Made by a program: the position numbers and the translations under genes
The notes under the pieces: model-generated
What the model was told of the DNA's origin: nothing
Database searches by the model: none
What the model saw: only the letters and a program-made list of their open reading frames with translations
Shown here: positions 15,515 to 60,553 of the stretch, in pieces
How the letters are laid out: every line of letters begins with the position of its first letter
Numbering within the stretch: position 1 is the stretch's first letter
Source of the DNA: Cellvibrionales bacterium
GTDB taxonomy: Bacteria > Pseudomonadota > Gammaproteobacteria > Pseudomonadales > JAHEIH01
Length of the DNA stretch: 64,000 bases
NCBI GenBank assembly: GCA_024639455.1
Contig: JAHEIH010000007.1
Coordinates: forward strand, 45,119 to 109,118
Direction of reading: 5' to 3'

Positions 15515-16285
15515 TTAATTTTTTGAAGTTAACGCGTGGTCGCGCGCTACATCTTCTGGCAGACGCTCAGCTGTGATCTCTTGGCCTGTGATCGGATGCT
15601 TCTGGTGGAAAGGCACCAGACGATGGCTAGGCCACAACCAAATGTCCTCGCGTGGAATCAGTGCGTCGGGCCCGGCAGGATCTTCTGGGTAGGTGGTGGA
15701 CAAGAAGGGCACGTAATTTTCTTTGGTGTGCGCCCAGCCGGTTTCAAAGTCAGCGTGCCACTGGGGCATATAATTGAGCACATGAATGTGCCATACCCCG
15801 TTTATCTTGCGATAGGTGTTCTCATAGATACCACCTTCCCACCATTGGCGTTGGCGGCCTAGGTAGGTATCGTCGGCAAAATCTTTGTGCTTACCCGCTT
15901 GCATAGTGCAGCGGAAGCGACCGTAGGCGGTTTCGCCATCTTCGGCAATGTCGACGATATCCTGATGCTGTGGGTGGTCGAGTAAGAAACCGTCAACTGG
16001 ACCGTTGTTGCCCTTGGTAAAGTTTTTCTGGAAGCGCTCTACATAAAGGCGCTGTGCGCCGGCCTTATTTTTGTAAATGCCTCCGAAAAAACGCACTTCG
16101 CAATCGGGGGTAAAGAGGTCCACGGCTTCTCTGTAGAGGCATTTATCAAGCAGATAGCCATACAGGTGGTGCAGCTTGCGAATGGCTTGCTCGTCCTCGC
16201 AAACAGTGACGCGGCGCTGTAGCGTGTCTACCAGGCCTTCCAGTCGGGCAATTTTGTCTTCTAGTGCTTTTAAATTGTCGCTCAT
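15515..16285 (-). CDS. Long NTF2-like/SnoaL-type protein, LdpA-like candidate lyase (paralogue 1)
   Basis: This 256-residue protein has an N-terminal coiled coil (about residues 1-35) and then an NTF2/SnoaL-type alpha+beta barrel. Conserved positions shared with three other proteins in the window are Tyr42-Gly-Tyr44, Asp47 and Cys49, a GFLLDHPQHQDIV segment and a WWEGGIYEN segment. Size and organisation resemble LdpA, the cofactor-less NTF2-like diarylpropane lyase of sphingomonads that turns a beta-1 dimer into lignostilbene and formaldehyde. The start overlaps the end of the upstream MFS gene by 4 bases (ATGA), implying coupled translation. Assignment as lyase is inference. Another elimination or isomerisation on an aromatic dimer is possible. 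Confidence 0.7.
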   Translation of the reverse strand: MSDNLKALEDKIARLEGLVDTLQRRVTVCEDEQAIRKLHHLYGYLLDKCLYREAVDLFTPDCEVRFFGGIYKNKAGAQRLYVERFQKNFTKGNNGPVDGFLLDHPQHQDIVDIAEDGETAYGRFRCTMQAGKHKDFADDTYLGRQRQWWEGGIYENTYRKINGVWHIHVLNYMPQWHADFETGWAHTKENYVPFLSTTYPEDPAGPDALIPREDIWLWPSHRLVPFHQKHPITGQEITAERLPEDVARDHALTSKN

Positions 16286-18870: not shown

Positions 18871-20418
18871 ATGTTGGTCCGTGACTGTGTTGTAGGATTT
18901 TTGCGAGGCTTAGGTGTCGATCGTATCTTTGGCAACCCGGGGTCTACCGAGTTGCCAATGTTTAAACAATTTCCCGATGACATGGAGTACGTGCTGGCCC
19001 TGCAGGAAGCGTCGGCCGTGGCAATGGCGGACGGTTATGCTTTGGCAGGTGATAGGTTAGGCGTCGTCAGTTTGCACTCCGCCGCAGGTGTTGGAAATGC
19101 CATGGGCAATATCTATACGGCGTTTAAAAATCGAGCCCCTTTGCTGCTTATTGCCGGTCAGCAGGCGCGCGGTATTCTTCCATATGGGCCCTTTTTAGGT
19201 TCTGACGACCCAGAGTTGTTGCCCCAGCCCTATGTGAAATGGAGTTGCCAGCCAGAAGCGGCGGCGGATGTGCCTGCGGCGGTGGCTGAAGCCTATCGTA
19301 TCGCCATGACACACCCGCGCGGCCCTGTGCTAATTTCGGTGCCTGTGGATGATTGGGAGCAGGAAGCCCTTGCGCCGACTGTGCCAGCATTGCCTGCAGT
19401 ATCAACCCTCACGGTATCTCAGCAGGCCGATCTAGTAGAGGCGCTTAATACAGCTCAGTCACCAACCCTTGTTGTTGGGCCTGAAGCAGCTAGAGCGTGG
19501 TCCGGTGTTATTGCGCTAGCTGAACATATAGGTTCCCCTGTTTGGGTCAGTCCGTTTTCTCATCAGGCGAGTTTTCCAGAAGACCATCCGTTGTTTGCGG
19601 GTTTTTTGCCAGCGATGCGCGAGGGTATCGTACAGCGTTTGCAGCCCTACGATCTGATCGTGGTGTTGGGCGCCCCTGTGTTCACGTATCATATCGACGG
19701 GAAGGGCCCATTTATCCCGTTTCACAGTCGTTTGATACAAATTACCGAATGCCCTCGCGTGGCGTCTCAAGCGGCCGTCGGCGAGTCGATGGTGGCAGAT
19801 GTAGCGGCGTGCGTCAGCGCTTTATTAGACGCTTCAAATTTAGCGTCGAGGCCTGCTACTTTTATAAAGCCGCCTCCAAAGGCTTGCTCCGACGAGGTAT
19901 TGACAGGGCGTGTGCTGATGCAGGCTCTGGCGAAGTGCATGCCTGAGGGATGTGTTTTAGTAGAAGAATCGCCTTCTACGCGCGCTGTCATGCATGACTA
20001 TCTTCCCGTGGTGACCGAATGCAGTTTCTATACTTGCGCTAGTGGTGGACTGGGGTACAGTTTGCCGGCGGCAGCGGGGGTAGCTATGGCCCTGCCAGAT
20101 AAGTCCGTGTTGGCATTATTGGGTGATGGCTCTTCGTTGTACTCCGTTCAAGCGCTATGGAATATGGTGCAAGCCCGCTTGCCGGTTGTGGTAGTCATAG
20201 TGAACAACGGTTGTTACAAGGCGCTCAGTGAATTTTCCCAGCATTTTGGTCTCACTCGCCTTGTTGGCACCGAGTTGCCAGGTATTGATTTTCTGGCTCA
20301 GGCGCAGACTTTCGGAATGCGAGCGGAATCGATTAAAGACCCTGCTGAGCTTGAGAGTAGGCTGCACGCTGCTTTTGCAGCGCGCGCACCGGTCTTACTC
20401 GATATCCATGTTACTTAG
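18871..20418 (+). CDS. ThDP-dependent decarboxylase, benzoylformate-decarboxylase-like
   Basis: This 515-residue protein has the three-domain layout of ThDP enzymes. It is close to benzoylformate decarboxylase (MdlC) in its N-terminal half (FGNPGSTELPMF, ALQEASAVAMADGYA). The catalytic set known from that enzyme is present: Ser25, Glu46 and His69, each one position earlier than in the Pseudomonas enzyme, and a later His in GAPVFTYH matching its His281. The ThDP/Mg motif GDGSSLYSVQ to VNNG lies near the C-terminus. The enzyme would convert an aryl-glyoxylate, for example vanilloylformate, to the aldehyde. The gene ends 8 bases inside the converging stilbene dioxygenase gene. The exact 2-oxoacid is inferred. 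Confidence 0.85.
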   Translation: MLVRDCVVGFLRGLGVDRIFGNPGSTELPMFKQFPDDMEYVLALQEASAVAMADGYALAGDRLGVVSLHSAAGVGNAMGNIYTAFKNRAPLLLIAGQQARGILPYGPFLGSDDPELLPQPYVKWSCQPEAAADVPAAVAEAYRIAMTHPRGPVLISVPVDDWEQEALAPTVPALPAVSTLTVSQQADLVEALNTAQSPTLVVGPEAARAWSGVIALAEHIGSPVWVSPFSHQASFPEDHPLFAGFLPAMREGIVQRLQPYDLIVVLGAPVFTYHIDGKGPFIPFHSRLIQITECPRVASQAAVGESMVADVAACVSALLDASNLASRPATFIKPPPKACSDEVLTGRVLMQALAKCMPEGCVLVEESPSTRAVMHDYLPVVTECSFYTCASGGLGYSLPAAAGVAMALPDKSVLALLGDGSSLYSVQALWNMVQARLPVVVVIVNNGCYKALSEFSQHFGLTRLVGTELPGIDFLAQAQTFGMRAESIKDPAELESRLHAAFAARAPVLLDIHVT

Positions 20419-21877
20419 CGCTATCGAGCTGCTGCCGGTCTACCCAGTGGCCGTGGACACCCTGGCGTAATCGCACGGGCAGTTTCACTTTGGCGATCGG
20501 GCCGGCAGCGATATTCTCAGCGTCTAGTATGTGCAGCTCGCTGAGCATGGTGTCGAAGTTGTTCGCAACGCCCATCAGAAAGCCAGAGCCCTCTGGCGCC
20601 TCCGCTGATTTGGGTACAAACTGGCACTCTTGCAGAGTGTAATTTTCCCCGGGGAAGTAGGTTTGTGCGCTGCCTTTATCGTGATCGAAGCGAACCCAGG
20701 TGTTGATGGTCATGCCGACGTTGCCCGCCATACTGGCTGAGCGGGGTTTGGTCGGGTCCATGCAGGGCATGAAGCCCACGTTGTATGGTCGCGACCAGTA
20801 GCGCTCATCGGTGCGCGGTAGGACGCCAATTTGTGGGTACATGACTTCGGTTTGGTAGGTGGTGGCTGCTGGATCAGCAAGATCGATGGTGATGCGGGTT
20901 AAGCGGCCGGAGGCGCGTTCGAGATCAAATTGTTCGTGTAAGCTTGGGAAGAATGGGAATTGGTTGCCGGTGGCCATGTCCATGTCGACAATGATTTTGC
21001 TACCGTCATTAAATCCATTCATCACGTGGGTGGCACATTTTTCCGGGCCTTCGTACCAGCGAATATCGCTGCCATCGCCGTGACGTGAGACAACGCCAAA
21101 GTAGCTAGGCAAGCTAGAGTCCCACGCAAAGTGAACGCCCCCTTGCTCCATTTGCTCAACGTTAACCGCCATCGGTACGCACAGTATGGCGATATGTGTC
21201 TCTGTAATGGCAAAGTCGTGAATCATGCCTGAATAAGGAACTTCAATCCACGCCTCGCGAGCCACCTCGCCATGCTTGTCGATGGTATAGAGCGCCACGT
21301 CTTTACTTGCTTCGCCCTTGGCCTCGTAGGCCAGGCCAATCATCTCGTCTGTCTGCGGATCGATCTTGGGGTGGGCAGTGAAGGTTTTGGCGGTCATTTT
21401 TCCGCCAAAGGTGTAGTAGTCGTCGATACTCTTCAGTGTGTAAGGGTCAATATGTACCGGTGGGCTGTCCTCTTTGAGGGCAAAGAGCTTGCCTGCATGG
21501 AAGACGAGGTTGGTGTTGGCTGTGCCGCCGCTCAATCCCTTCACTTCATCAAGGTCGGTGCGTGGGTTGCGATAGGTGCCAAACAGTGCTTTACGGGCGC
21601 TAGCCTGCGCTTTATAGCGCTGGGTTTCAACGTGGTGGGTTTTAATATCCACGTGACCGTTGCTAAAACTGAACAACGTCACGTTGCCGTCGCCGTTAAA
21701 GGGGACGTCGTTGGCATAACGCGGTGGGTAGATAAAGTCAGGCTGAATGCGATAGAAGTGGCCGTTAAGTTCGGTGGGTATTTCACCTTCGTGTTCGGCA
21801 TCGTGCAAATCGATGTTCATTCGAAACGGCGCATTAAACCCCATGAAGCCAGGATTTTTCGGAAATTCTAATGACAT
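20411..21877 (-). CDS. Lignostilbene-alpha,beta-dioxygenase-type carotenoid oxygenase
   Basis: This 488-residue protein is a non-haem iron oxygenase of the carotenoid cleavage family. The four iron-binding histidines are placed as expected (His169, His220, His284, His475). The residues that define the lignostilbene branch are present as Phe60, Tyr102 and Lys135, one position later than in the Sphingomonas enzyme. In that enzyme Tyr and Lys act on the 4-hydroxyl group of the stilbene. The enzyme should cleave a hydroxystilbene at the central double bond to two vanillin-type aldehydes. AAGGAAC precedes the ATG. It lies 51 bases behind an LdpA-like NTF2 gene, the same pairing of stilbene maker and stilbene cleaver known from sphingomonads. 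Confidence 0.88.
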   Translation of the reverse strand: MSLEFPKNPGFMGFNAPFRMNIDLHDAEHEGEIPTELNGHFYRIQPDFIYPPRYANDVPFNGDGNVTLFSFSNGHVDIKTHHVETQRYKAQASARKALFGTYRNPRTDLDEVKGLSGGTANTNLVFHAGKLFALKEDSPPVHIDPYTLKSIDDYYTFGGKMTAKTFTAHPKIDPQTDEMIGLAYEAKGEASKDVALYTIDKHGEVAREAWIEVPYSGMIHDFAITETHIAILCVPMAVNVEQMEQGGVHFAWDSSLPSYFGVVSRHGDGSDIRWYEGPEKCATHVMNGFNDGSKIIVDMDMATGNQFPFFPSLHEQFDLERASGRLTRITIDLADPAATTYQTEVMYPQIGVLPRTDERYWSRPYNVGFMPCMDPTKPRSASMAGNVGMTINTWVRFDHDKGSAQTYFPGENYTLQECQFVPKSAEAPEGSGFLMGVANNFDTMLSELHILDAENIAAGPIAKVKLPVRLRQGVHGHWVDRQQLDSAK

Positions 21878-21928: not shown

Positions 21929-22642
21929 TTATTCTTGTTCGGGGCGAGGGCGTTGGCCTTCCCAGGGGGCGCCTGTGGTTGGGTGTGGATAGTGGAAGTC
22001 CACCACATCCACCTCGGGCCAGCTGACCGCAGTGTGGTCAATGGCATCGGGGCCGACGGGGTTGCCAGGGTAGAGATCCGCCTCGGTGTAGAACGGTACG
22101 AAGTTGGGTTTGGTGTAGGCCCAGCCATTTTCAAAGGTGCCGTGGAAGGCGCAGCGATAATTTAAGCGCTTTATTTTCCAAACGCCATCGACTTTGACAT
22201 ATTCGTTTTCATAGACGCCGCCTTCCCACCACTGGCGAGTGTCGACGCCTGCCATCATGTGCATGCCGGCCTGCATCATACTGCGGAAGCGACCTTTGGC
22301 GCTTTTGCCGTCGTCACTAATGGTGACGATGCCTTGCATTTGGGCGTGGTCGAGTAGGAACCCGAAGACTGGACCGTTGTAGTCATTGGTGAATTTTTTC
22401 CGAAAACGACCAATGTATAAGCGTGCAACGGAGGCTTTACTTTTGAAGGCGCCGCGCAGGAAAACGACTTCGCCATCGTCGGCAAATAGATCTACCACCT
22501 CTTCGTAGAGGCATTTGTCTAGGTAGTAACCATAGCTGAATTGAAGGCGCTCAATAGCGAGGCGGTCTTCAACATTCGTTAACCGATGGGTCAGTGCTGC
22601 CACTTGCTGGGTTAGCTGTTCAATCTGGTTGTTCTCGGTCAT
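21929..22642 (-). CDS. Long NTF2-like protein, LdpA-like candidate diarylpropane lyase (paralogue 2)
   Basis: This 237-residue protein has an N-terminal coiled coil (about residues 5-30), then an NTF2-like fold with Tyr37-Gly-Tyr39, Asp42 and Cys44, GFLLDHAQMQGIV and WWEGGVYEN. It has the size expected of LdpA. It is directly upstream of a lignostilbene dioxygenase on the same strand, which makes it the strongest of the four paralogues as an LdpA-type gamma-formaldehyde lyase giving lignostilbene from a diarylpropanediol. AAGGAT precedes the ATG. The promoter region carries two perfect TGTATACA sites. Function is inferred from fold, length and partner gene. The catalytic residues of LdpA were not checked by alignment. 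Confidence 0.75.
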   Translation of the reverse strand: MTENNQIEQLTQQVAALTHRLTNVEDRLAIERLQFSYGYYLDKCLYEEVVDLFADDGEVVFLRGAFKSKASVARLYIGRFRKKFTNDYNGPVFGFLLDHAQMQGIVTISDDGKSAKGRFRSMMQAGMHMMAGVDTRQWWEGGVYENEYVKVDGVWKIKRLNYRCAFHGTFENGWAYTKPNFVPFYTEADLYPGNPVGPDAIDHTAVSWPEVDVVDFHYPHPTTGAPWEGQRPRPEQE

Positions 22643-22799: not shown

Positions 22800-22864
22800 G
22801 TATTTACATGTCATTCGATAAGCACTAATATCGATGTCCAATGAAAATTTACGCGGAGCGTGCC

Positions 22865-23548
22865 ATGATCGACCTTTATTACTGGCCTACGGGTAACGGT
22901 AAAAAAATCACAATTATGCTCGAGGAATGTGGCCTTGAATACCGTGTCAATCCTATCGACATTACTAAAGGCGATCAGCACAAACCCGAGTTTTTGAAGA
23001 TTGCCCCTAATAATAAGATGCCGGCGATTGTCGATCACGATGCCGAGGGCGGTCCCTTAGCGATTTTTGAATCTGGCGCCATCCTAGTGTACCTCGCTGA
23101 AAAGACAGGTAAATTTTTGCCTTCAGATCTGCATGGTCGTATGCAGGTGATGCAGTGGCTGTTTTGGCAGGTGGGAGGAATCGGCCCTAATTGTGGTCAG
23201 GCGCACTATTTTGTGCACTACGCAGGAAGTGTCAATGAGGAGGCTCGCCATCGTTTCAAAACCGAAGTGGCGCGATTGTATGGCGTTCTGGATAGACGTT
23301 TGGCCGATAACGAATTTATCGCTGGCAGTGATTACTCTATTGCTGATATGGCCACCTGGCCTTGGATCTATCGCTACGAATGGCAGGGGCAGGACATTAA
23401 CGACTTCCCCAATGTAAAACGCTGGTTTGATCAATTGGCGGCACGTCCCGCCCTGGACCGCGGTGCTAACGTTGGCACTGACCTGGCTGACTTGCATAAG
23501 AAAATGGACGATGATGACCGCGATCGTTTGTTTAACGTTAAGAAATAG
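22865..23548 (+). CDS. Nu-class glutathione S-transferase (YfcG-like), candidate glutathione lyase
   Basis: The ATG at 22865 is preferred over the in-frame one at 22841 because GGAG lies just upstream and the family's first strand starts there (MIDLYYWPTGNGKK). This gives 227 residues. It closely follows E. coli YfcG as I remember it: NGKKITIMLEE, the APNNKMPAIVDHD loop, FESGAILVYLAEKTG with the Glu-Ser glutathione-binding pair, and LQWLFWQVGG-type helix 4. In Novosphingobium a Nu-class GST removes glutathione from the beta-etherase product (GS-HPV). This gene stands in a unit with LigF-type GSTs, so the same role is likely here (inference). Confidence 0.85.
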   Translation: MIDLYYWPTGNGKKITIMLEECGLEYRVNPIDITKGDQHKPEFLKIAPNNKMPAIVDHDAEGGPLAIFESGAILVYLAEKTGKFLPSDLHGRMQVMQWLFWQVGGIGPNCGQAHYFVHYAGSVNEEARHRFKTEVARLYGVLDRRLADNEFIAGSDYSIADMATWPWIYRYEWQGQDINDFPNVKRWFDQLAARPALDRGANVGTDLADLHKKMDDDDRDRLFNVKK

Positions 23549-23557
23549 GAACTGTAG

Positions 23558-25045
23558 ATGAGAATTTTGTTCGATCCGGTAAAAAAGTACGCTGAGACAA
23601 CCCCGACTAGAACCGCCCTTGGCTGTGTAGAGAGCGGTCGTGAGTGGAGTTGGGCTGAGTTTGACGCTTCGGTGAATCGTATTGCCGCCTGGTTGGTTGA
23701 TAGATTTGGTCCTAAAAGCGGCGTGCGAATTGCCGTGTTGGCAAAAAATCATCCCAATATCGCCATTCTGCAGTTTGCTTGTATTCGTGCCGGTGCCATT
23801 ATCGTGCCGTACAACTGGCGGCTAGCGCAGGCTGAAATCTTAGAGTTGCTGACAGATGCTGAACCGCAGTTAATGTTCTGTGATGCCGATTTTGTCTTCG
23901 ACGCGTTGAAGGATGCAATTGAAGTCATGCCGATGACCGATTTGGAAACATTGGGGGTGCAAGGTGCCGTTCCTCCCGTGGATGCTCGTCAAGCATGGGA
24001 TCAGCCCTCTACCCTGCTTTACACCTCGGGTACTAGCGGTAAGCCTAAGGGTGTCATTGTGACCGAGGAAAATGCCTTTTGGGGAAATACTAACTTTGGC
24101 TTAGGCAGTTTGCTATCTTACGAATCTTCTTTCCTTTGTGACATGCCCATGTTCCATACGGCGGGTCTTTTTGCTGCGACGCGTGTGCCTATCTTGTTTG
24201 GCGGAACGGTTTGGATTTCAAGCGGTTTTGATCCCGCGAAGACAATTGCTCGTATTGCGTCGCCAGAATTGAAAATTACCCATTATTTCTCAGTGCCCCA
24301 GATGGCCACTACGTTGTGGCAGCATCCCGATTTCACACCCGAGAAATTGTCGGGTCTTAAGATGTATGTGACCGGTGGTGCTCCCAATTCTCGCGCGCAA
24401 ATTGAGCGCTTTGCCAAGGCGGGTATTCGTTTCTCTGACGGCTTTGGTATGACAGAAACGGGTTCTAATTTTGCTATGCCTGTACTGGATGTTGATCGAT
24501 TAATAGAAAAAGCGGGCAGCTGTGGTATTCCTTTAATGACAGTGCAAGTGCGTATCGTCGATGAAGACGGCAATGATGTGGCACAGGGCGAGGTCGGGGA
24601 GCTTTATATTCGTGGACCCAGTGTCACGCCGGGATATTGGAACCAGCCAGAAATTTCGGCCAATGCTTTCGATAATGGTTGGTTCAAAACTGGCGATGCC
24701 GCGCGCTGTGACCAGGACGGTTTTTACTACCTCGTGGATCGCAAAAAAGATATGTACATTTCAGGCGGCGAGAATGTTTATCCCGCCGAGGTTGAGCGTA
24801 TTATCGTCGAGTTAACAGATATTGCCGATGTCGCCGTTATCGGCGTCCCCAACGAGCGTTGGGGTGAGGTCGGACGCGCCTTCATCTCGTTGAAGAGTGG
24901 TTCGACACTCACTGAGCAAGACATCATTGATCACTGCTTGAGCCGACTGGCCAAATTTAAAGTGCCCGCCAGTGTTGTGATTACTGAGCAAGTGCCAAGA
25001 ACGCCGTCAGGAAAGGTGCAGAAGCATTTATTGCCCCGCGATTAA
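23558..25045 (+). CDS. AMP-forming acyl/aryl-CoA ligase
   Basis: This 495-residue member of the ANL superfamily has the P-loop motif LLYTSGTSGKPKG (about residues 153-165), the SDGFGMTETG adenylate motif, the GWFKTGDAAR motif and the hinge near VDRKKDMYISGGENVYP. The catalytic lysine lies in TPSGKVQKH at the end. It activates a carboxylic acid to its CoA thioester with ATP. It lies 9 bases behind the Nu GST and about 60 bases before the next GST. A phenylpropanoid acid or 3-aryl-3-oxopropanoate would suit the context. A medium-chain fatty acid cannot be excluded from sequence. Confidence 0.85.
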   Translation: MRILFDPVKKYAETTPTRTALGCVESGREWSWAEFDASVNRIAAWLVDRFGPKSGVRIAVLAKNHPNIAILQFACIRAGAIIVPYNWRLAQAEILELLTDAEPQLMFCDADFVFDALKDAIEVMPMTDLETLGVQGAVPPVDARQAWDQPSTLLYTSGTSGKPKGVIVTEENAFWGNTNFGLGSLLSYESSFLCDMPMFHTAGLFAATRVPILFGGTVWISSGFDPAKTIARIASPELKITHYFSVPQMATTLWQHPDFTPEKLSGLKMYVTGGAPNSRAQIERFAKAGIRFSDGFGMTETGSNFAMPVLDVDRLIEKAGSCGIPLMTVQVRIVDEDGNDVAQGEVGELYIRGPSVTPGYWNQPEISANAFDNGWFKTGDAARCDQDGFYYLVDRKKDMYISGGENVYPAEVERIIVELTDIADVAVIGVPNERWGEVGRAFISLKSGSTLTEQDIIDHCLSRLAKFKVPASVVITEQVPRTPSGKVQKHLLPRD

Positions 25046-25104
25046 CGCTTTTTATACGTTGGTGATAGCCAACAATAATTATAAATTAACCATAGGTATC
25101 AACC

Positions 25105-25866
25105 ATGACAGATGTAACACTTTATCACTGGGAGCCCAATGCAAACTCGGGTAAACCCATGCTTGCTTTGGCTGAAAAGGGTGTTGATTACAACAGTCAT
25201 TACCTTGATCTGCTGAACTTTGATCAGCACGATCCTGAATATCTAAAAATTAACCCGCAGGGCACTATTCCTGCCATGACTCATGGCAACTTAATGCTGA
25301 CAGAATCGACCGCGATTATGGAATACGTGAATGAGGCTTTTGATGGGCCTGAATTGATGCCCTCTGACCCGCAAGCCCGTTGGCGTGTACGTTGGTGGAT
25401 GAAGTTTTTCGATCAGTGGTTTGCCCCCTCTGTCAGTATGATGGGTTGGAACTGGTTTGTTGGTCCTTCTGTTCGCGAGCGTGACCCTGAAGAGTTGGCC
25501 GCGCGTATCGAGCGTATTCCAATGCCTGAGCGCCGCGTGGCATGGAAAAAAGCCATTTACGGTTTATTTAGCGAAGAAGAATTGCGCGTTTCACAGCAGC
25601 GTGCCGAGATCGGTATTACATTGCTTGAAGAAGAATTGACCAAGCACAAATGGCTTGGTACTGATGAGTACACTCTGGCAGATATTAATGGATTTAACTT
25701 AGGGTTTGCCCTGCCTATGTCGCAGCCTGATCACTGTAATGATGAGAAAACACCCCATACGATGGAGTGGTTGCGCAAAATCTATGAGCGCCCCGCCACG
25801 AAAGAAACCTGGGCTAAGGGTCGCACTGAGTTGGCGAGCCGCGTAACCTTCCTAGAGCGTCAATAA
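25105..25866 (+). CDS. LigF-type glutathione S-transferase, candidate beta-etherase subunit
   Basis: This 253-residue GST has an N-terminal thioredoxin domain (about residues 4-80: YHWEPNANSGKPML, NPQGTIPAM, and the glutathione Glu-Ser pair in MLTESTAIMEY). A helical C-terminal domain contains the segment IPMPERRVAWKKA, like IPIPEQRTKWRRA of the LigF gene at 59 kb. It is directly followed (12 bases) by a diverged GST at 25879. Tandem GST genes encoding a heterodimeric beta-etherase (BaeA/BaeB) are known in Novosphingobium, and this pair may be an analogue. Ether cleavage is inferred from family and neighbours. Confidence 0.75.
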   Translation: MTDVTLYHWEPNANSGKPMLALAEKGVDYNSHYLDLLNFDQHDPEYLKINPQGTIPAMTHGNLMLTESTAIMEYVNEAFDGPELMPSDPQARWRVRWWMKFFDQWFAPSVSMMGWNWFVGPSVRERDPEELAARIERIPMPERRVAWKKAIYGLFSEEELRVSQQRAEIGITLLEEELTKHKWLGTDEYTLADINGFNLGFALPMSQPDHCNDEKTPHTMEWLRKIYERPATKETWAKGRTELASRVTFLERQ

Positions 25867-25878
25867 GAGGAGTATGCA

Positions 25879-26649
25879 ATGAAACTTTATCATGGAGAAC
25901 CCAATGCTGCTTCTTTGACCGTCATGGCAGCGTTATTTGAAAAGGGCATCAATGCCGAATTTGAAGCGATTGATTTGTGCGCTGGTGAGCGTCACGACTT
26001 GCCGATTACCTATGGGGTAGAAGTCTTGCGTAGCGTGGAGGGTGAAGGTCCTGTATTGGTTAACAATGGCGAAGCCATGGCCGATTCAGTGTTCATTGGT
26101 TGCATGTTGGATGAGTCTAAGGGTGATGCCACGCTGTTAGCCGGCGATGCGTATCGCCGTTGGCAGATTATGGTGTGGTGTCGACACGTGATCGAACGTG
26201 TGGCGCCGGCTGCTTCATATATTGGCAATCAGGCGTACTTGCAAGATGCACTTAAACGGATGAGTGATGCTGACTTTGCTGCATTGACAGCTAAGATTGC
26301 CGCAGAGGACCTGCGTGGTCGCTGGGAAGAGGTGCGCCAGGGCGACTTCACCGAGGAGCGCCTGGCGGAATGCCGCGCCAAAATCGTTCAGATGGTCGAT
26401 AAAATAGAAGCTCAGTTGAGCGGTGATTGGATCTTTGGCGATTTCAGCTTAGCGGATCTCGAGACCTACAGTTGGCTACGCGGCATGTTGAGCCTTGTGC
26501 CTGAGTCGTTTGACGGTCACGATTCTGTGATCGCCTGGATGGGCCGTGTTCAAGATAGACCTAGCGTCGCAAAAGCATTATCTTTGTCTGTCACTGGTTC
26601 ACCAGAAAAAGCTTGGCCAGTCGGCCCTGAAATTAACCGCTGGGGATAA
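25879..26649 (+). CDS. Diverged LigF-like glutathione S-transferase, possible heterodimer partner
   Basis: This 256-residue protein begins with YHGEPNAASLTVM, matching the first strand and helix of the neighbouring LigF-type GSTs. The glutathione-binding Glu-Ser pair is changed to Asp-Ser (GEAMADSVF), and the cis-proline loop region is weak (EGPVLVNNG). The C-terminal domain is helical with an FGDFSLADLETY segment like the TLADIN motif of other GSTs. AGAGGAG precedes the ATG. Because it follows a canonical GST by 12 bases and has a weakened glutathione site, it could be the non-catalytic subunit of a heterodimer. It could also be a GST with altered cofactor use. Confidence 0.65.
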   Translation: MKLYHGEPNAASLTVMAALFEKGINAEFEAIDLCAGERHDLPITYGVEVLRSVEGEGPVLVNNGEAMADSVFIGCMLDESKGDATLLAGDAYRRWQIMVWCRHVIERVAPAASYIGNQAYLQDALKRMSDADFAALTAKIAAEDLRGRWEEVRQGDFTEERLAECRAKIVQMVDKIEAQLSGDWIFGDFSLADLETYSWLRGMLSLVPESFDGHDSVIAWMGRVQDRPSVAKALSLSVTGSPEKAWPVGPEINRWG

Positions 26650-26691
26650 TTCTCCAGCGTGAGTACATAACGATAAGTAAAGGTATTCACT

Positions 26692-28827
26692 ATGATTAAA
26701 CGCACCGCAATAATTCTCGGTTTGGCTGCTGTATTAGCAGCCTGTTCGGAGAGTCAGCAAGCCGCCGCGCCTGCTGCCCCCGCCGCGCCGCAAGGCGTTG
26801 TTATAACCGATGCATCACTTGAAAATGCTGCCAGCGAAACGTCGCAATGGTTGACCTATAACCGCTCATACATGGCGCAGCGTTTTAGCCCTAATACGCA
26901 GATCACCAAAGAGAACGTTGCCAATCTTGGACTGGAATGGTACGCCGACCTCGACACTAAACGTGGCCAGGAAGCGACCCCCTTGGTGATCGACGGAAAG
27001 ATGTATGTCACCACGGCATGGTCAAAAGTCAAAGCTTACGACGCAAAAACCGGTGCATTGTTGTGGGAGTTTGATCCTAAAGTGCCTGGCGAAGCGGCCG
27101 TAAAAGCTTGCTGTGACGTGGTTAACCGCGGTATGGCTGCCTATGGCGATAAGTTGTACTTTGGCTCATTCGATGGCCGTTTGATCGCGTTGGATCGCGA
27201 AACAGGTAAGGTCATTTGGGAAAAAGTGACCGTTGATCAGAATCAGTCTTATTCGATTACCGGTGCACCTCTAATTGTTAACGGTAAGGTGATTATTGGT
27301 AACGGTGGTGCAGAGTACGGTGTGCGCGGTTATATCGCGGCCTATGATACCGAAACGGGTGAAGAAGCATGGCGTTTCTACACCGTCCCAGGAAATCCTG
27401 AAACATCAAATGACCCTGCCTACCTGCAAAAGGCAGCTAAAACATGGACGGGTGAATGGTGGAAACTGGGCGGTGGCGGCACGGTTTGGGATTCGATGAC
27501 CTATGACCCAGAGCTCGATCTCCTGTATATCGGTGTGGGCAATGGCTCCCCTTGGAACCAGAAGATTCGTTCACCCCAAGGTGGCGACAACCTCTACTTG
27601 TCTTCTATCGTCGCCGTGCGCCCCGACACTGGTGAATACGTATGGCACTATCAAGGTACGCCCGGCGAGACATGGGACTTTACCGCGACTCAGCACATTA
27701 TGCTGGCTGACCTAGAAATTGATGGCAAGTTACGCAAGGTTCTCATGCAGGCACCTAAAAACGGTTTCTTCTTCGTGATCGATCGTGAAACGGGTGAGTT
27801 TATCTCGGCGAAGAACTTTGTCTTCGTGACCTGGGCAACCGGTTACGATGAGAATGGCCGCCCCATCGAAAACCCCGACGCGCGTTATTACAACAAAGAT
27901 GGCGTTGTGTTTGTGCTGCCAGGCGCTGGTGGTGCTCACAGCTGGCAACCTATGGCGATGAACCCCAAAGAAGGACTGGTGTACATTCCAGCGAATATTG
28001 CGGGTTTCCCCTACGCGGATGAAAAAGGCTGGGAAGCGAAGCCAAAAGGCTTTAATACCGGCAACGATTTCTCGATGGGGGCGATGCCTCCAATCCCCGA
28101 GGTGCGTAATGGAGCGTTGGCGGCTACCGGTGGCGCATTGATTGCTTGGGATCCCATCAAGCAAGAAGCCCGGTGGCAGGTAGATTATGAGGCGGCATCA
28201 AATGGCGGTCTGTTAGCTACCGCAGGTGGCTTGGTCTTCCAAGGTACGGCGGCTGGCGAGTTCGTAGCCTACGACGCAGCCAACGGTGAGCGTCTGTGGA
28301 GCTTTGATGCGCAAAGCAGTATATTGGCGGCCCCCGTGTCGTTTGAAATGGATGGTGATCAATACATTGCGGTGCTGGTAGGACGTGGTGGTATTTTCCA
28401 CTTGGCGCCTGGGTTGTTGTCGCTGGATGGTGCGCCACCAGAGAACATCAGCCGTATGATGGTCTTTAAACTGAATGCAGATAAAACCTTGCCCCCTAAA
28501 ATTGCACAGCAGTTGGGTGCGCTTAACCCACCTGCCAAAGTAGGTACGGTGGAAAGTATTGCTGAAGGTTCTTACTTGTATGGCCGTTACTGTGGCACTT
28601 GCCACGGCGATGCAGCTATTGGTGGTGGCGTGTTGCCCGATCTTCGTCACTCGGCGATTAATGCCACCGCAGATGCATGGAAAACCATTGTTGCGGATGG
28701 CGCCCTTACCGATCGCGGTATGGTGGGTTGGACCGATGTGATGACGCTGGAACAAATTGAAGCGGTGCGTCACTACGTTATCAATCGTGCCCACGAGGAC
28801 GCTGCGTTAGAAGCCGCTGGCCACTAG
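26692..28827 (+). CDS. PQQ-dependent quinohaemoprotein alcohol dehydrogenase (lipoprotein)
   Basis: This 711-residue protein has a lipobox (VLAAC, Cys17) after the signal peptide and an eight-bladed PQQ propeller (about residues 45-590). The vicinal cysteine pair in KACCDVVNRG is the family's disulfide ring next to PQQ. The catalytic Asp lies in GETWDFTATQ. The residue two positions later is Thr, not Asp, so this looks like a calcium and not a lanthanide enzyme. A C-terminal cytochrome c domain has CGTCHG near residue 637. It oxidises primary or side-chain alcohols on the periplasmic face and passes electrons to the respiratory chain. In this unit a dimer's or HPV's hydroxymethyl group is a plausible substrate (inference). 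Confidence 0.9.
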   Translation: MIKRTAIILGLAAVLAACSESQQAAAPAAPAAPQGVVITDASLENAASETSQWLTYNRSYMAQRFSPNTQITKENVANLGLEWYADLDTKRGQEATPLVIDGKMYVTTAWSKVKAYDAKTGALLWEFDPKVPGEAAVKACCDVVNRGMAAYGDKLYFGSFDGRLIALDRETGKVIWEKVTVDQNQSYSITGAPLIVNGKVIIGNGGAEYGVRGYIAAYDTETGEEAWRFYTVPGNPETSNDPAYLQKAAKTWTGEWWKLGGGGTVWDSMTYDPELDLLYIGVGNGSPWNQKIRSPQGGDNLYLSSIVAVRPDTGEYVWHYQGTPGETWDFTATQHIMLADLEIDGKLRKVLMQAPKNGFFFVIDRETGEFISAKNFVFVTWATGYDENGRPIENPDARYYNKDGVVFVLPGAGGAHSWQPMAMNPKEGLVYIPANIAGFPYADEKGWEAKPKGFNTGNDFSMGAMPPIPEVRNGALAATGGALIAWDPIKQEARWQVDYEAASNGGLLATAGGLVFQGTAAGEFVAYDAANGERLWSFDAQSSILAAPVSFEMDGDQYIAVLVGRGGIFHLAPGLLSLDGAPPENISRMMVFKLNADKTLPPKIAQQLGALNPPAKVGTVESIAEGSYLYGRYCGTCHGDAAIGGGVLPDLRHSAINATADAWKTIVADGALTDRGMVGWTDVMTLEQIEAVRHYVINRAHEDAALEAAGH

Positions 28828-28850
28828 TTTTACTGATTTATACTCTTTGC

Positions 28851-28874
28851 AAAGCCGGCGATTCGTCGGCTTTT
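28851..28874 (+). terminator. Intrinsic terminator behind PQQ dehydrogenase
   Basis: AAAGCCGGCG-att-CGTCGGCTTTT forms a stem with one G-T wobble followed by TTTT. The next GST gene starts 30 bases later, so it may reduce but not abolish read-through. Confidence 0.7.
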
Positions 28875-28903
28875 CTGTTTATACATAATAAAAAGGACTA
28901 AAC

Positions 28904-29665
28904 ATGTCTATTACTTACTATCACGCGGAACCGGTCGCCAATTCGCTGAAATCGATGATCCCCCTGTTTGAGAAGAACATTGAATTCACTAGTCGCTATG
29001 TGGATCTTCATAGGTTTGAACAACACCAGGATTGGTTCTTGGCGATTAACCCCGAGGGGCAGGTGCCCGTGCTTGATCATGACGGTACCATTATTACTCA
29101 CACCACGGTCATTAACGAGTACCTAGAGGATGTGTTTCCCGACATCCCATTGCGCCCACATGACCCTGCAGGGGCGGCTAGAATGCGCTACTGGAATAAG
29201 TTTATTGATGAGCATGTGATGAACTTCGTGTCGCTACACGGATGGCACCGCATGGTGAGTGTCATTGCTCGAGGTATTGAGTCGGGGGAATTTGAAAACT
29301 TGATGGAGCGTATTCCACTGCCGGATCAGCGAAAGAAGTGGCGCGATGCGCGTTCTGGATACGAGCAAAAAGATCTCGCTCACGCGACCGCTAAAGTTGA
29401 ACAAGCGGTCGATAAGGTCAACGCACAGTTAGAAAAAACGGAATGGTTGGCGGGAGGTGATTACACGCTGGCTGATATCAATTTCTTTAGTCATTGCGGC
29501 ATGATGGTGGAGCGGATGTTCCCTGAGATGGATGTGGCTAACAGAGCACCTGCCTTAGCGGCATGGTGTGAGAGAATGAAACTACGTCCTGGGGTGGCTA
29601 AGGCACTCGAGATGCCGGATCACACTAATCCCGCGTTGCGTACATTTACTGGCCACGTGCGTTAA
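28904..29665 (+). CDS. LigF-like glutathione S-transferase with altered glutathione site
   Basis: This 253-residue protein is similar to the LigF gene at 59 kb over the thioredoxin domain (FEQHQDWFLAINPEGQVP, EYLEDVFPD) and in the helical domain (IPLPDQRKKWRDARSGY). The glutathione-binding Glu-Ser pair of LigF (ITESTVI) reads His-Thr here (ITHTTVI), an unusual change for a working glutathione site. AAGGA precedes the ATG, and it is 10 bases ahead of an SDR gene. The GST-SDR pair mirrors the ligF-ligD pair at the other end of the window. Substrate and reaction are uncertain. It may be a beta-etherase of different stereochemistry or a partner subunit. Confidence 0.72.
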   Translation: MSITYYHAEPVANSLKSMIPLFEKNIEFTSRYVDLHRFEQHQDWFLAINPEGQVPVLDHDGTIITHTTVINEYLEDVFPDIPLRPHDPAGAARMRYWNKFIDEHVMNFVSLHGWHRMVSVIARGIESGEFENLMERIPLPDQRKKWRDARSGYEQKDLAHATAKVEQAVDKVNAQLEKTEWLAGGDYTLADINFFSHCGMMVERMFPEMDVANRAPALAAWCERMKLRPGVAKALEMPDHTNPALRTFTGHVR

Positions 29666-29675
29666 GGAGGCCGCT

Positions 29676-30572
29676 ATGATTGATTTTAAAGATAGAGTGG
29701 CCTTTGTCACCGGGGGCGCCAACGGTATTGGTATTGGTTTGGTGCGTGCGCTATTGGCTCAAGGGTGTAAGGTAGCCATCGCCGATATTAGACAGAATGC
29801 GATTGATGATGCGCTCGCTGAGCTTAATAACCCAAATGCTATGGGTGTTCAGTTAGATGTGTCTAGTCGCGAGCAAATGGCTGCTGCTGCCGACAAGGTT
29901 GAAGCAACCTTTGGTGTGGTGACCTTGTTATTTAACAACGCCGGTGTGAATCTTTTTCAGACCATTGAAGAGTCGAGCTTTTCAGATTGGGATTGGTTGC
30001 TTGGCGTTAATTTGCATGGCCCCATCAATGGTGTGATGACTTTTGTGCCGCGCATGATTGATCACGGCAAGGGCGGTTATGTGGTGAATACTGCCTCCAT
30101 GGCGAGTATTTTGGCTGGCGGCCGTCCCGGTATTTACAACACGGCGAAGTTTGCCGTACGGGGGATGTCTACTTCGTTGCGCGGTAGTCTAGCCGCACAC
30201 AATATCGGTGTGTCGGTGGTGTGTCCTGGGCTGGTTAAGTCGTACATTTATGCCAGTGATGATATTCGTCCACAGGATTTAATGGCGGATGCTAAGCCCG
30301 TTGACCCCGAAGCTATTGAGCACCTAGCGGGTGTTCATGGTTATGGAATGGAGCCCGATGTCATCGCCGCACGCATTCTGGACGGTATGAAAGACGATCG
30401 ACACCACATCTTTACCCATCCTGAATTCAAGGACGAGTTGCGTGAGGTATTCGATGAAATGCTCGATGATTTTCGTGATTATGAGGCGGACCCAGGATAT
30501 GAGCAGCGACTGGGGTTTGAAAAGTTTCGCCGAGAAAGTTACCGTGAACAGCGTAAAGGGCGGTTGAAGTAA
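29676..30572 (+). CDS. LigD/LigL-like short-chain dehydrogenase (candidate Calpha-dehydrogenase)
   Basis: This 298-residue classical SDR has the Gly-rich nucleotide motif VTGGANGIGIG (residues 11-21), NNAG at 87-90 and a catalytic triad of Ser141, Tyr154 and Lys158 (YNTAK). It has the extended C-terminal tail (to about 300 residues) that characterises the LigD/LigL/LigN/LigO group, where SDRs oxidise the Calpha alcohol of beta-O-4 dimers. AAGGAGG precedes the ATG, and the gene is 10 bases behind a LigF-like GST. Oxidation of one Calpha stereoisomer is a reasonable inference. The alternative is another secondary alcohol of a phenylpropanoid. Confidence 0.8.
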   Translation: MIDFKDRVAFVTGGANGIGIGLVRALLAQGCKVAIADIRQNAIDDALAELNNPNAMGVQLDVSSREQMAAAADKVEATFGVVTLLFNNAGVNLFQTIEESSFSDWDWLLGVNLHGPINGVMTFVPRMIDHGKGGYVVNTASMASILAGGRPGIYNTAKFAVRGMSTSLRGSLAAHNIGVSVVCPGLVKSYIYASDDIRPQDLMADAKPVDPEAIEHLAGVHGYGMEPDVIAARILDGMKDDRHHIFTHPEFKDELREVFDEMLDDFRDYEADPGYEQRLGFEKFRRESYREQRKGRLK

Positions 30573-37968: not shown

Positions 37969-38157
37969 TTAGAAGCTGTATTTAAGACCTACGGTGTAAC
38001 GGCGGCCTAATTGGTCGAAGAGGCTCTCGTTCACTTGATCAGAGGCGCCGAGGAACACCGAGTAATAGGGCGTCACTGGGCGGGCGCGGTCGGTGATATT
38101 GGTCATATTACCGAACACTTCAAAGGTAGATCCATTACTCAGCTTTTGCGTTTTCAT
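37969..38157 (-). pseudogene. Remnant of a TonB-dependent receptor (C-terminal end only)
   Basis: These 62 codons encode a typical receptor C-terminus: FEVFGNMTNITDR (the usual penultimate barrel segment), a PYYS turn region and the final strand RRYTVGLKYSF ending in Phe. Nothing resembling the plug or the rest of the barrel lies upstream. The reading frame runs straight back into the last codons of the NTF2-like gene, which overlaps it by 23 bases in another frame. The remnant has no signal peptide and cannot work as a receptor. It is best explained by a deletion that removed the 5' part of a receptor gene. Confidence 0.72.
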
Positions 38158-38848
38158 GGGTGACGTTAAGGTTGCGGCCAGTCACGGGGTGCGCGTAGTG
38201 ATAGGGAATCGCGGCGCGGTCTGGCCAGGCAGGGCGCTTAAACTCTAACAGCGCATCTGGCCCGAGGGGGTTTTCCGGGAAGGTGCTGTCAAAGGGCTGC
38301 AAGTGACAATCGGTGTGCGACCAGCCTTTTTCATATTCGGCTTGCCATTCGACGATGTAGTCAAGGCGTTGAATTTTCCAGACACCGTTTTCCTGCACAT
38401 AGGTATTCTCGTAGATACCCGCTTCGTAGAACTGCTCGGGCAATCCCTCGGGGCAGTATTCACGGCTGTGGTGATTACCACCAGCGAGCATCGCGCGGAA
38501 ACGGCCTTTAGCGGTTTTGCGATCGGGTGCGACATCGACGATGTCCTGCATTTGGAAGTGATCCAGCAAGAAACCGTCCATCGGGCCGTCGACGCTCTTG
38601 GTAAAGAACTCTTGGAACCACGTTTTGTAGAGGCGGCGAATACCTTCGTGGCCCTTATAAATGCCTGACAGGAAGAGGACCTCACCGTCTTCGGCAAACA
38701 GTTCAACGACATCGTCGTAACGACAGTAATCGATGAGATAGCCGTAACTGAAATGCAGTTTGCGGATCGCGTTGACATCCTCGAGGGTGTTCACTTGATG
38801 TTGAAGGGCGTCGAGTCGCGCTTCGATGGTCGATATATCTGTGCTCAT
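38135..38848 (-). CDS. Long NTF2-like protein, LdpA-like candidate lyase (paralogue 3)
   Basis: The start is the ATG at 38848, with AAGGAAG upstream and the coiled-coil start conserved among the paralogues. An open frame extending to 39013 is spurious. The 237 residues contain an N-terminal coiled coil, Tyr35-Gly-Tyr37, Asp40, Cys42, GFLLDHFQMQDIV and a YEAGIYEN segment in place of the usual WWEGG. The WW-to-YE change sets it apart from paralogues 1 and 2. The last few codons overlap a receptor remnant, so the C-terminus may have been altered by the deletion. Its promoter region with the divergent SDR contains the MarR-type box at 38897-38909. Confidence 0.72.
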   Translation of the reverse strand: MSTDISTIEARLDALQHQVNTLEDVNAIRKLHFSYGYLIDYCRYDDVVELFAEDGEVLFLSGIYKGHEGIRRLYKTWFQEFFTKSVDGPMDGFLLDHFQMQDIVDVAPDRKTAKGRFRAMLAGGNHHSREYCPEGLPEQFYEAGIYENTYVQENGVWKIQRLDYIVEWQAEYEKGWSHTDCHLQPFDSTFPENPLGPDALLEFKRPAWPDRAAIPYHYAHPVTGRNLNVTHENAKAE

Positions 38849-38896
38849 GCTGGCTTCCTTGTTGTTAGATTTATTATGGGTTATAAGTATTAAAAA

Positions 38897-38909
38897 ATAA
38901 CAAACGATA
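38897..38909. promoter_or_regulatory. Candidate MarR-regulon box (ATAACAAACGATA)
   Basis: This 13-base sequence is the exact reverse complement of the box at 43580-43592 and 11/13 identical to 53154-53166. It lies between the divergent NTF2-like and SDR genes. Confidence 0.6.
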
Positions 38910-38954
38910 CTTTTCATGTAAATCAAACTTAAGAATAAAAAAGGAAAATCTGAC

Positions 38955-43592: not shown

Positions 43593-43656
43593 TATTGAAA
43601 GGCCTGTTCATTATGTTATCTTCAATAAAAATAAAAACACTATGGAGACGTTCCTA

Positions 43657-58893: not shown

Positions 58894-59637
58894 TTATTTC
58901 TTGGCGGGGCCAAGATCCTCTTTCTTAGTGTGGGCAAACATTTTCTGTACCGCAGGGCGTTCTTTGATACGCGTGAGCCATGCCATAATGCCTGGTGTCT
59001 TCTCTTCATTAACGAGTTCGGGATAACCCATGTCCATGCCGTTGGCGATGGCGAAGTTGCAAACGTCGGCGAGGGTATATTGGTCGCCAAGCAAGTAATC
59101 TTGTTGACTCAGTGTCTCTTCCAAACGATCGACAGAGACGCCAATCTTGCGCATTTCTTCGTCTAGCATGTCTTGTGGGAAGCCGTCGCGGGCGCGGCGC
59201 CACTTGGTACGCTGCTCTGGAATAGGAATATTTTTCAGGTGGTTTTCAAATTCTTCCTCGGTCATTTTGTTCGCAATGTGGGATACATAGCGCGCCCAGC
59301 CGATCGTAGAAACGCACCAGCAGAAGTACTCGTCAACCCACTTGGTCCAAACACGCATCTGTGCGGCCATGAAAGGATCTTTGGGGCGCAGTGGGTTGGC
59401 GTCGGGGAAGACATCTTCTAGATATTCGCAAATAACGGTGGACTCGGTAATCACCTTGCCGTCATGCACCAGGGCGGGCACCTGGCCGCGGGGGTTGATC
59501 TCTTTGAACCAGTCTGAATGTTGTTCAAACTTGGCGGGGTCGACGAATTGGTGTTCCCATTCAACGCCTTTTTCGTACAGGGTTAGGAGTGGTTTAAGAG
59601 AGTTGGCGCCAGGGCCAAAGCTGTAAAGTTTTAGCAT
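58894..59637 (-). CDS. ligF: LigF: glutathione-dependent beta-etherase
   Basis: This 247-residue protein resembles sphingomonad LigF throughout, as I recall that sequence: LYSFGPGANSLKPL, FEQHSDWFKEINPRGQVPAL, the glutathione Glu-Ser pair in ITESTVICEYLEDVFP, RVWTKWVDEYFCWCVSTIGWA, IPIPEQRTKWRRARDGFPQ and LADVCNFAIANG. LigF replaces the aryl ether of an oxidised beta-O-4 dimer with glutathione, releasing guaiacol-type phenol. AGGACAAGAAC precedes the ATG. It lies 13 bases behind ligD on the same strand, the order known from the sphingomonad ligDFEG operon, though ligE and ligG are not next to it. Two candidate regulator sites lie at the head of the unit. Confidence 0.93.
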   Translation of the reverse strand: MLKLYSFGPGANSLKPLLTLYEKGVEWEHQFVDPAKFEQHSDWFKEINPRGQVPALVHDGKVITESTVICEYLEDVFPDANPLRPKDPFMAAQMRVWTKWVDEYFCWCVSTIGWARYVSHIANKMTEEEFENHLKNIPIPEQRTKWRRARDGFPQDMLDEEMRKIGVSVDRLEETLSQQDYLLGDQYTLADVCNFAIANGMDMGYPELVNEEKTPGIMAWLTRIKERPAVQKMFAHTKKEDLGPAKK

Positions 59638-59650
59638 GTTCTTGTCCTAG

Positions 59651-60553
59651 TTATTTTTCTTCAAAAAAGACTTTCGCGCCATTGGCACCCCAGTTCATCA
59701 GGGCGTCAGCTCGCATCTGGGCTTCTGGGTCCGTATCCATAGCTGGGAATGCCTCTAGTATCTGGTTGAAACGTGCTTCAACCATGCCGCGGCACTCGGG
59801 GTAGGGAATAATATAAAGCTGTTTTGCTTCCAGACCATTCATGATGTGTTGGGCAAGGATTTCTGGCGTCATACCATGTTGGTGGATGCTCTCTAGTGAC
59901 GCACGCGATGCTTCGTTTTCCACGTAGCCGCTGTTGGCTTTGTCGACGGGACGTAGTTTGGTGGCATCGGCAATATTTGATTTGATATTAGCGGGGCATA
60001 CCACCGACACATCGATACCGTATTTGCTCAGGCTCATGCTGTAGCTTTCCATGAGGTTAACGACCGCTGCTTTGGCGGCTGAATAGGGGGCTGCTAAGGG
60101 TGAGCCACCGAGACCGCCTAATGAAGAAACTGTGACAATTTTGGCGGGAACACCGGCTTCGATCATACGCGGTACAACCGTCACCATGCCGTTAATAACA
60201 CCGTTGAGGTTAACGTCGATGATCCAGTCGTAGTCATCGTAAGTGGTTCTTTCAACGGGGCCAAAGCTGTTGACGCCAGCAGTGTTCGAGAGGATGGTGA
60301 TGGTTCGGCCAAATACCCGCTCAACTTCGTCAGCGGCGGCGGTATAGGCAGCGCGGTCGCAGATATCAAGTTGAATGCCGTGGGCTCGGATACCCTCTGC
60401 GCTTAACTTAGCTACGGCTTCGTCCACCGCCTCGCGACGAATATCGGCGACCACAATGGCAGCACCTGCTCGACCAAACACTTGCGCCTGACCGAAACCC
60501 GCACCCGACGCACCGCCGGTGATAAACATAATGTCATTTGAATAATCTGCCAT
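59651..60553 (-). CDS. ligD: LigD: NAD-dependent Calpha-dehydrogenase of beta-O-4 dimers
   Basis: This 300-residue SDR matches LigD throughout as I recall it: FITGGASGAGFGQAQVFG, LSNTAGVNSFGPVERTTYDD, DVNLNGVINGMVTVVPRM, VVCPANIKSNIADA, SGYVENEASRASLESIHQHG and LYIIPYPECR. The nucleotide loop is at residues 11-21, and the catalytic residues are Ser143/144, Tyr157 and Lys161. LigD oxidises the Calpha alcohol of guaiacylglycerol-beta-guaiacyl-type ethers to the ketone that LigF needs. AAGGAACC precedes the ATG. It follows two haem-protein genes by 36 bases and leads ligF by 13, so all four may be one transcript. Confidence 0.93.
   Translation of the reverse strand: MADYSNDIMFITGGASGAGFGQAQVFGRAGAAIVVADIRREAVDEAVAKLSAEGIRAHGIQLDICDRAAYTAAADEVERVFGRTITILSNTAGVNSFGPVERTTYDDYDWIIDVNLNGVINGMVTVVPRMIEAGVPAKIVTVSSLGGLGGSPLAAPYSAAKAAVVNLMESYSMSLSKYGIDVSVVCPANIKSNIADATKLRPVDKANSGYVENEASRASLESIHQHGMTPEILAQHIMNGLEAKQLYIIPYPECRGMVEARFNQILEAFPAMDTDPEAQMRADALMNWGANGAKVFFEEK

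Follow-up and report, generated by a model that had tools for sequence, protein, structure and literature searches.

A BaeAB-type pair of GST genes in a gammaproteobacterial lignin-dimer cluster: a predicted beta(R)-etherase heterodimer

The closest described system is BaeAB, a two-part enzyme of lignin-degrading sphingomonads that breaks the most frequent linkage of lignin. This beta(R)-etherase heterodimer was described from Novosphingobium aromaticivorans and from Sphingobium xenophagum (Kontur et al. 2018, PMC6369299). BaeAB of the latter species cleaved beta(R)-MPHPV. Catalysis depends critically on Asn14 of BaeA, and binding on its Ser15; BaeB has an alanine in place of this Asn and can do without its Ser14 (PMC6369299). 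The baeA gene lies directly upstream of baeB, the two overlap in almost all cases, and A is more conserved than B (PMC6369299). Attempts to crystallise BaeAB had failed when it was described. A further GST of N. aromaticivorans, Saro_2865, is the tested beta(S)-etherase NaLigF2 and is also named DesD (table in PMC12997858). CHMOD builds up in desD mutants, and OMA is formed by purified DesCD; NaLigF2/DesD has been reported both as a beta-etherase and as part of the DesCD isomerase (PMC8612281).

The DNA analysed here, referred to as the window, is a stretch of 64,000 nucleotides from a gammaproteobacterium of the order Pseudomonadales; the record of its congener is likewise a Pseudomonadales MAG. 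A collinear block (22841-30572) encodes a Nu-class GST, an acyl-CoA ligase, BaeA, BaeB, a PQQ dehydrogenase, a LigF2-type GST and an SDR. The window contains five GST candidates of the beta-ether pathway, named below by their lowest coordinate. The original prediction listed three of them (25105, 25879 and 28904) and overlooked the Nu-class GST at 22841-23548 and the canonical LigF at 58894-59637 on the minus strand. The features are as follows:

22841..23548, plus strand: Nu-class GST of the YfcG/YghU/NaGSTNu family, candidate glutathione lyase of the final pathway step (YfcG 1e-67; 5uun 6e-41)
23558..25045, plus strand: acyl-CoA ligase, collinear with baeAB
25105..25866, plus strand: BaeA homologue, predicted catalytic subunit, 253 aa
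25867..25878, plus strand: 12-nt gap between the baeA stop and the baeB start, with a Shine-Dalgarno-like GAGGAG
25879..26649, plus strand: BaeB homologue, predicted non-catalytic partner, 256 aa
26623..26646, plus strand: C-terminal tail of BaeB, G249-P-E-I-N-R-W-G256, up to the stop codon
26692..28827, plus strand: PQQ-dependent alcohol dehydrogenase, adjoining baeAB in most loci
28851..28873, plus strand: terminator-like hairpin with a 10-pair stem, in the interval between the PQQ dehydrogenase and the 28904 GST
28904..29665, plus strand: NaLigF2/DesD-type GST, 253 aa
29676..30572, plus strand: SDR dehydrogenase, next after the 28904 GST, 70% to a Chakrabartia homologue
58894..59637, minus strand: canonical LigF (LigF1 type), candidate beta(S)-etherase, 67% to sphingomonad LigF, LigF clade SH-aLRT 99
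59651..60553, minus strand: LigD-like C-alpha-dehydrogenase, candidate first pathway step (4y98 'C alpha-dehydrogenase', E 2e-121)

When 84,980 species genomes were scanned using an alignment of BaeA, 141 relatives were recovered, and 80 of these were fetched as loci. The product of 25105 is 64-73% identical to its BaeA relatives (65-73% to those of sphingomonads), except for the congener (94%). It is 69% identical to the BaeA of S. xenophagum NBRC 107872, the same species as that of the assayed SxeBaeA, and 68-69% identical (376-377 bits) to two sphingomonad BaeA copies located on plasmids. These values lie above the 50% identity and 200 bits by which Kontur et al. recognise BaeA. Asn14-Ser15 (codons 25144-25149) has the same numbering as in the BaeA mutagenesis of Kontur et al. 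and is found in all 83 BaeA rows of the family alignment, as is the Glu-Ser pair, here Glu67-Ser68 in MLTESTAI (codons 25303-25308). The AF2 model (pLDDT 92) has LigF 4XT0 as its nearest fold (Z 31.1). By sequence, LigF 4XT0 is also the best solved relative of 25105, 25879 and 28904 (E 3e-43, 4e-12 and 2e-53, respectively). The 25105 product is a BaeA homologue, with the predicted catalytic Asn14-Ser15 kept.

The product of 25879 has Ala11-Ser12 (codons 25909-25914), with alanine at the catalytic Asn position of LigF and BaeA, and Asp69-Ser70 in MADSVFI (codons 26083-26088). This difference from 25105 and 28904, which both have Asn-Ser at the catalytic position, had been overlooked. The protein is 44-57% identical to the BaeB proteins behind BaeA in sphingomonads and relatives, which is borderline for the 50% criterion that Kontur et al. 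applied, and 82% identical to that of the congener. Against S. xenophagum BaeB the value is 49-51%, depending on the alignment, where Kontur et al. used >50% and 200 bits; other sphingomonad BaeB proteins score 221-235 bits. Its AF2 model (pLDDT 94.2) is nearest to LigF 4XT0 (Foldseek E 8e-11), so that 25879 has a complete GST fold, though Pfam detects only the C-terminal half. In the tree, 25879 falls in a BaeB clade of its own (SH-aLRT 97), 28904 in a separate clade (100) and 58894 with LigF (99). Among 65 BaeB rows the catalytic Asn position is held by Pro (54) or Ala (11) and never by Asn, and the gamma-glutamyl site by Asp (38) or Glu (27), with Ala replacing Ser in four. Mean column conservation is 0.80 for BaeA and 0.62 for BaeB. 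The 25879 product is a BaeB homologue and the predicted non-catalytic partner.

The residue pairs Glu-Ser, Asp-Ser and His-Thr named in the original prediction are present and occupy the same alignment columns as Glu65-Ser66 of the window's own LigF. They are conserved across relatives and are not chance occurrences. Calling the latter two sites degenerate is misleading: Asp is the commonest residue in BaeB, so that the Asp-Ser of 25879 represents the ordinary BaeB state, and His-Thr is a clade signature. We therefore rejected the idea that these residues mark 25879 and 28904 as decayed; both pairs are typical of their clades.

A BaeB-type GST follows BaeA directly in all 78 of the 80 loci that had enough sequence left downstream. 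In 14 loci, mostly from gammaproteobacterial MAGs (L056, L064, L081, L087, L095, L096, L097, L098, L102, L104, L106, L111, L115 and L127), the partner is more divergent, with 28-38% identity to the window proteins. The Asn position is taken in these proteins by Phe, Tyr, Leu or Val and the Ser is often absent; the RWG tail is kept. A new partner family 'X' was considered for these proteins and rejected, since they carry the BaeB tail and fall within the BaeB clade (SH-aLRT 97). The BaeA and BaeB trees are parallel, with a distance correlation of 0.80 over the 78 loci. A neighbour control on one set of loci gave 0.65 for BaeA against the PQQ dehydrogenase and 0.75 for BaeA against BaeB. The neighbour correlation is thus nearly as high. 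Gene pairing and matched trees can also arise from co-inheritance of an operon, and the mirror-tree result, only slightly above this control, was set aside as proof of interaction. In the window baeA lies directly upstream of baeB, with the Shine-Dalgarno sequence in the 12-nt gap. The predicted 25105/25879 heterodimer of the BaeAB type, as originally proposed, is well supported by homology to BaeA and BaeB, gene order, the Asn/Ala signature and the invariable pairing. One locus (L113:4562-6175) holds BaeA and BaeB in a single in-frame 537-aa reading, while its near relative L123 has separate genes; as the two differ by short indels in a MAG, the fusion could have arisen from an error in the assembly.

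Only 14 columns are invariant in 49 BaeB and BaeB-like rows, and five of them fall within the last eight residues (G249, E251, R254, W255 and G256); no residue follows G256. The tail has the pattern -G-(P)-E-x-x-R-W-G, of the PGPEINRWG type; 25879 has it, and BaeA has no such tail. Its codons vary synonymously, which indicates that selection acts on the protein. The AlphaFold monomer of 25879 is confident almost everywhere else, but the last six residues have a mean pLDDT of about 53 and the last three are below 50. Strict conservation combined with the lack of a confident position in the monomer is what a docking segment would show, and suggests that the tail may dock on BaeA. The main text of Kontur et al. 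(PMC6369299) contains no discussion of the tail. A more far-reaching reading, which we offer tentatively and regard as rather less probable than its opposite, would take BaeB as a decayed GST retained for a tail that extends over the BaeA active site or into it and completes or shapes the beta(R) pocket in trans. BaeA would then activate glutathione and BaeB would set substrate access and stereochemistry, and the gammaproteobacterial lines with a more decayed BaeB would have lost the Ser and kept the tail.

The 28904 product has Asn13-Ser14 (codons 28940-28945) and His66-Thr67 in IITHTTVI (codons 29099-29104). Its clade (SH-aLRT 100) comprises 73 distinct sequences with 65-79% identity. All 73 keep the catalytic Asn-Ser, and the second pair is HT in 67, HS in four and QT in two, giving His in 71 of 73. 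About 20 loci have a GST of this type in the neighbourhood of baeAB, and 40 of the 397 sphingomonad-family genomes searched contain one. The gene order in N. subterraneum is BaeA, BaeB, ligase, PQQ dehydrogenase, ALDH, amidohydrolase, small protein, SDR and 28904-type GST. This gene count matches that from Saro_2873 to Saro_2865, so the GST corresponds in position to Saro_2865; Saro_2870 (PQQ-dependent) and Saro_2869 (ALDH) fit the same order. By this gene-by-gene correspondence, 28904 is assigned to the NaLigF2/DesD clade. The His-Thr pair would be compatible with activity if Saro_2865 carries it too, as we infer.

LigE was searched for with SYK-6 LigE, identical to 4YAM over the stretch used. 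Neither this 99.5% complete genome nor the congener yielded an orthologue, the best match (1e-3) being the LigF gene, which leaves BaeAB as the only recognisable beta(R)-etherase of the genome. With LigD-like, LigF, LigF2-type, BaeAB and Nu-class GST genes in the window, all beta-O-4 steps are assignable by homology: LigD-type oxidation, beta(S) cleavage by LigF/LigF2, beta(R) cleavage by BaeAB and removal of glutathione by the Nu-class GST.

From homology, residues, pairing and gene order we infer the following scheme, to which we give a probability of roughly 85%. The products of baeA and baeB would form a heterodimer of the BaeAB type. Its substrate would be the ketone from the LigD-like dehydrogenase, whose beta(R)-aryl ether it would open to yield a phenol and a glutathione thioether. 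BaeA would bind and activate glutathione via Asn14, with Ser15 and Glu67-Ser68 aiding binding. BaeB, having lost the activating Asn, would have an obligate structural role as its partner, in which the conserved C-terminal tail of BaeB may take part. The 28904 GST would be a separate NaLigF2/DesD-type enzyme, most likely a homodimeric beta(S)-etherase beside the LigF at 58894, and the Nu-class GST at 22841 would afterwards remove the glutathione.

If 25105 and 25879 were instead independent homodimers, the former a beta-etherase and the latter a glutathione-binding protein with another job, they would resemble LigF and LigE, which are homodimeric beta-etherases (PMC6369299), and the Ser retained at both glutathione sites of 25879 would be accounted for. 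This is quite improbable in view of the BaeB-type neighbour at every BaeA locus, the complete lack of the activating Asn in the 65 BaeB rows and the little if any activity shown by N. aromaticivorans BaeA and BaeB alone (PMC6369299). A heterodimer of the BaeAB type could also act on another aryl ether or dimer than the guaiacyl beta-O-4 ketone, as stereospecificity in this family is not predictable from sequence alone (PMC6369299) and the window is rich in other lignin-dimer genes (lignostilbene dioxygenases and SnoaL-type proteins). We consider such a substrate unlikely, given that the same window holds three further components of the beta-O-4 route (the LigD-like dehydrogenase, LigF and the Nu-class GST) and that beta(R)-MPHPV is a substrate of the homologues from three sphingomonads (PMC6369299). 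The beta(R)-etherase heterodimer is the reading we retain for the pair.

For 28904 the original prediction had offered either a second partner of the pair or another mechanism. As a partner of 25105 or 25879 it would at least be nearby, on the same strand and in the same cluster. It keeps the full catalytic Asn-Ser, however, is a relative of NaLigF2/DesD, and BaeA already has an invariable partner; elsewhere the 28904-type gene lies 2.3-8.6 kb from BaeA and is not seen near BaeA in many loci. The distance correlation of 28904 with BaeA is 0.37 compared with 0.67 for BaeB over the same loci, and a terminator-like hairpin lies ahead of 28904, although such sites in the region are no more numerous than in shuffles. 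We regard the second-partner idea as highly improbable. Of the other idea, part stands in that NaLigF2/DesD has a reported place in the DesCD isomerase. The protein might act mainly as DesD, in the isomerase for CHMOD during syringate breakdown, with His-Thr reflecting this role; the desD phenotype and OMA formation by DesCD quoted above (PMC8612281), an alpha/beta-hydrolase-like ORF after the 28904-type gene in N. lentum (L105) and the LigB-family ring dioxygenases of the genome are in its favour. With the hydrolase next to the L105 copy as the DesC query, the search of this 99.5% complete genome gave no orthologue, the best match reaching 6e-4 with 32% along only part of the sequence, and the gene after 28904 is an SDR instead. 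The DesD role is thus a possibility that we take seriously but think the weaker one; the etherase role is favoured for 28904 and assignment to DesCD withheld because of the missing DesC orthologue.

At E 1e-60 BaeA was found in this genome alone among 369 sampled gammaproteobacterial genomes. Many neighbouring genes are 60-82% identical to sphingomonad proteins and similar in order, from which it follows that the cluster was shared between the classes, in one direction or the other. Two of the sphingomonad copies reside on large plasmids, one of which is typed as conjugative. Contamination of the assembly with sphingomonad DNA is unlikely, since the congener (G001) has the genes at 82-94% identity and the G+C content of the window (51.6%) matches that of other stretches of the genome (49-53%). 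The congener carries the same genes (L049) at about 46% G+C, compared with 51.6% in the window, so it is probable that members of the genus have carried the cluster for a while.

Positions 5834-60553 of the window have the appearance of a large lignin-dimer catabolic island with content and order in common with sphingomonads at 60-82% identity; an SDR at 38955 is 82% identical to that of Chakrabartia godavariana. Four SnoaL-type proteins are encoded (15515-16285, 21929-22642 and 38135-39013 on the minus strand, 51112-51816 on the plus strand); one of them matches 8abt-8abv, a group with solved structures (2e-53). Two lignostilbene dioxygenase-like genes are also present (20411-21877, minus; 56461-57924, plus). 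These two groups suggest cleavage of beta-1/beta-5 dimers by deformylation plus dioxygenase. Vanillyl-alcohol-oxidase-like flavoproteins are encoded at 43642-45225 and 54877-56427, both on the plus strand, and the former is 62-68% identical to the gene preceding baeA in many sphingomonads. A LigB-family aromatic ring dioxygenase gene lies about 2.1 kb beyond the window end (G000:C25:111231-112019, minus strand; 2.6e-76), and a second copy is on contig C15.

Compared with the known systems, LigF of SYK-6 (4XT0) is the nearest solved structure for 25105, 25879 and 28904 and has the same fold, but LigF proper is the gene at 58894, to whose product the three are about 30-48% identical. The LigE/FuA-class enzyme (4YAM) catalyses the same reaction on the same beta(R) stereoisomer as BaeAB, but is unrelated at the orthologue level and was not detected here. 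With NaLigF2/DesD, 28904 shares the Asn-Ser and the His signature common to the clade, and a GST of its type stands in the N. subterraneum baeAB cluster at the place of Saro_2865 in N. aromaticivorans; it differs in having no DesC gene in the genome and an SDR as the following gene. With BaeAB itself the pair shares the A-B order of two LigF-related GST genes, the Asn14-Ser15 of A and the Ala-Ser of B, the stronger conservation of A and similar flanking genes. The differences are the gammaproteobacterial host, the separation of the genes by 12 nt in place of an overlap, the lack of a detectable LigE and a BaeB only 44-57% identical to those of sphingomonads. The pair is of the BaeAB type in an uncommon host, and the BaeB tail is a new feature. 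BaeAB, described from sphingomonads, is thereby extended to the Gammaproteobacteria, as the only recognisable beta(R)-etherase of this genome and with a BaeB partner that always lacks the catalytic Asn. The apparent active-site defects, Asp-Ser and His-Thr, are explained as family signatures, and the BaeB tail is the segment to which the data point for the role of the second, inactive chain.
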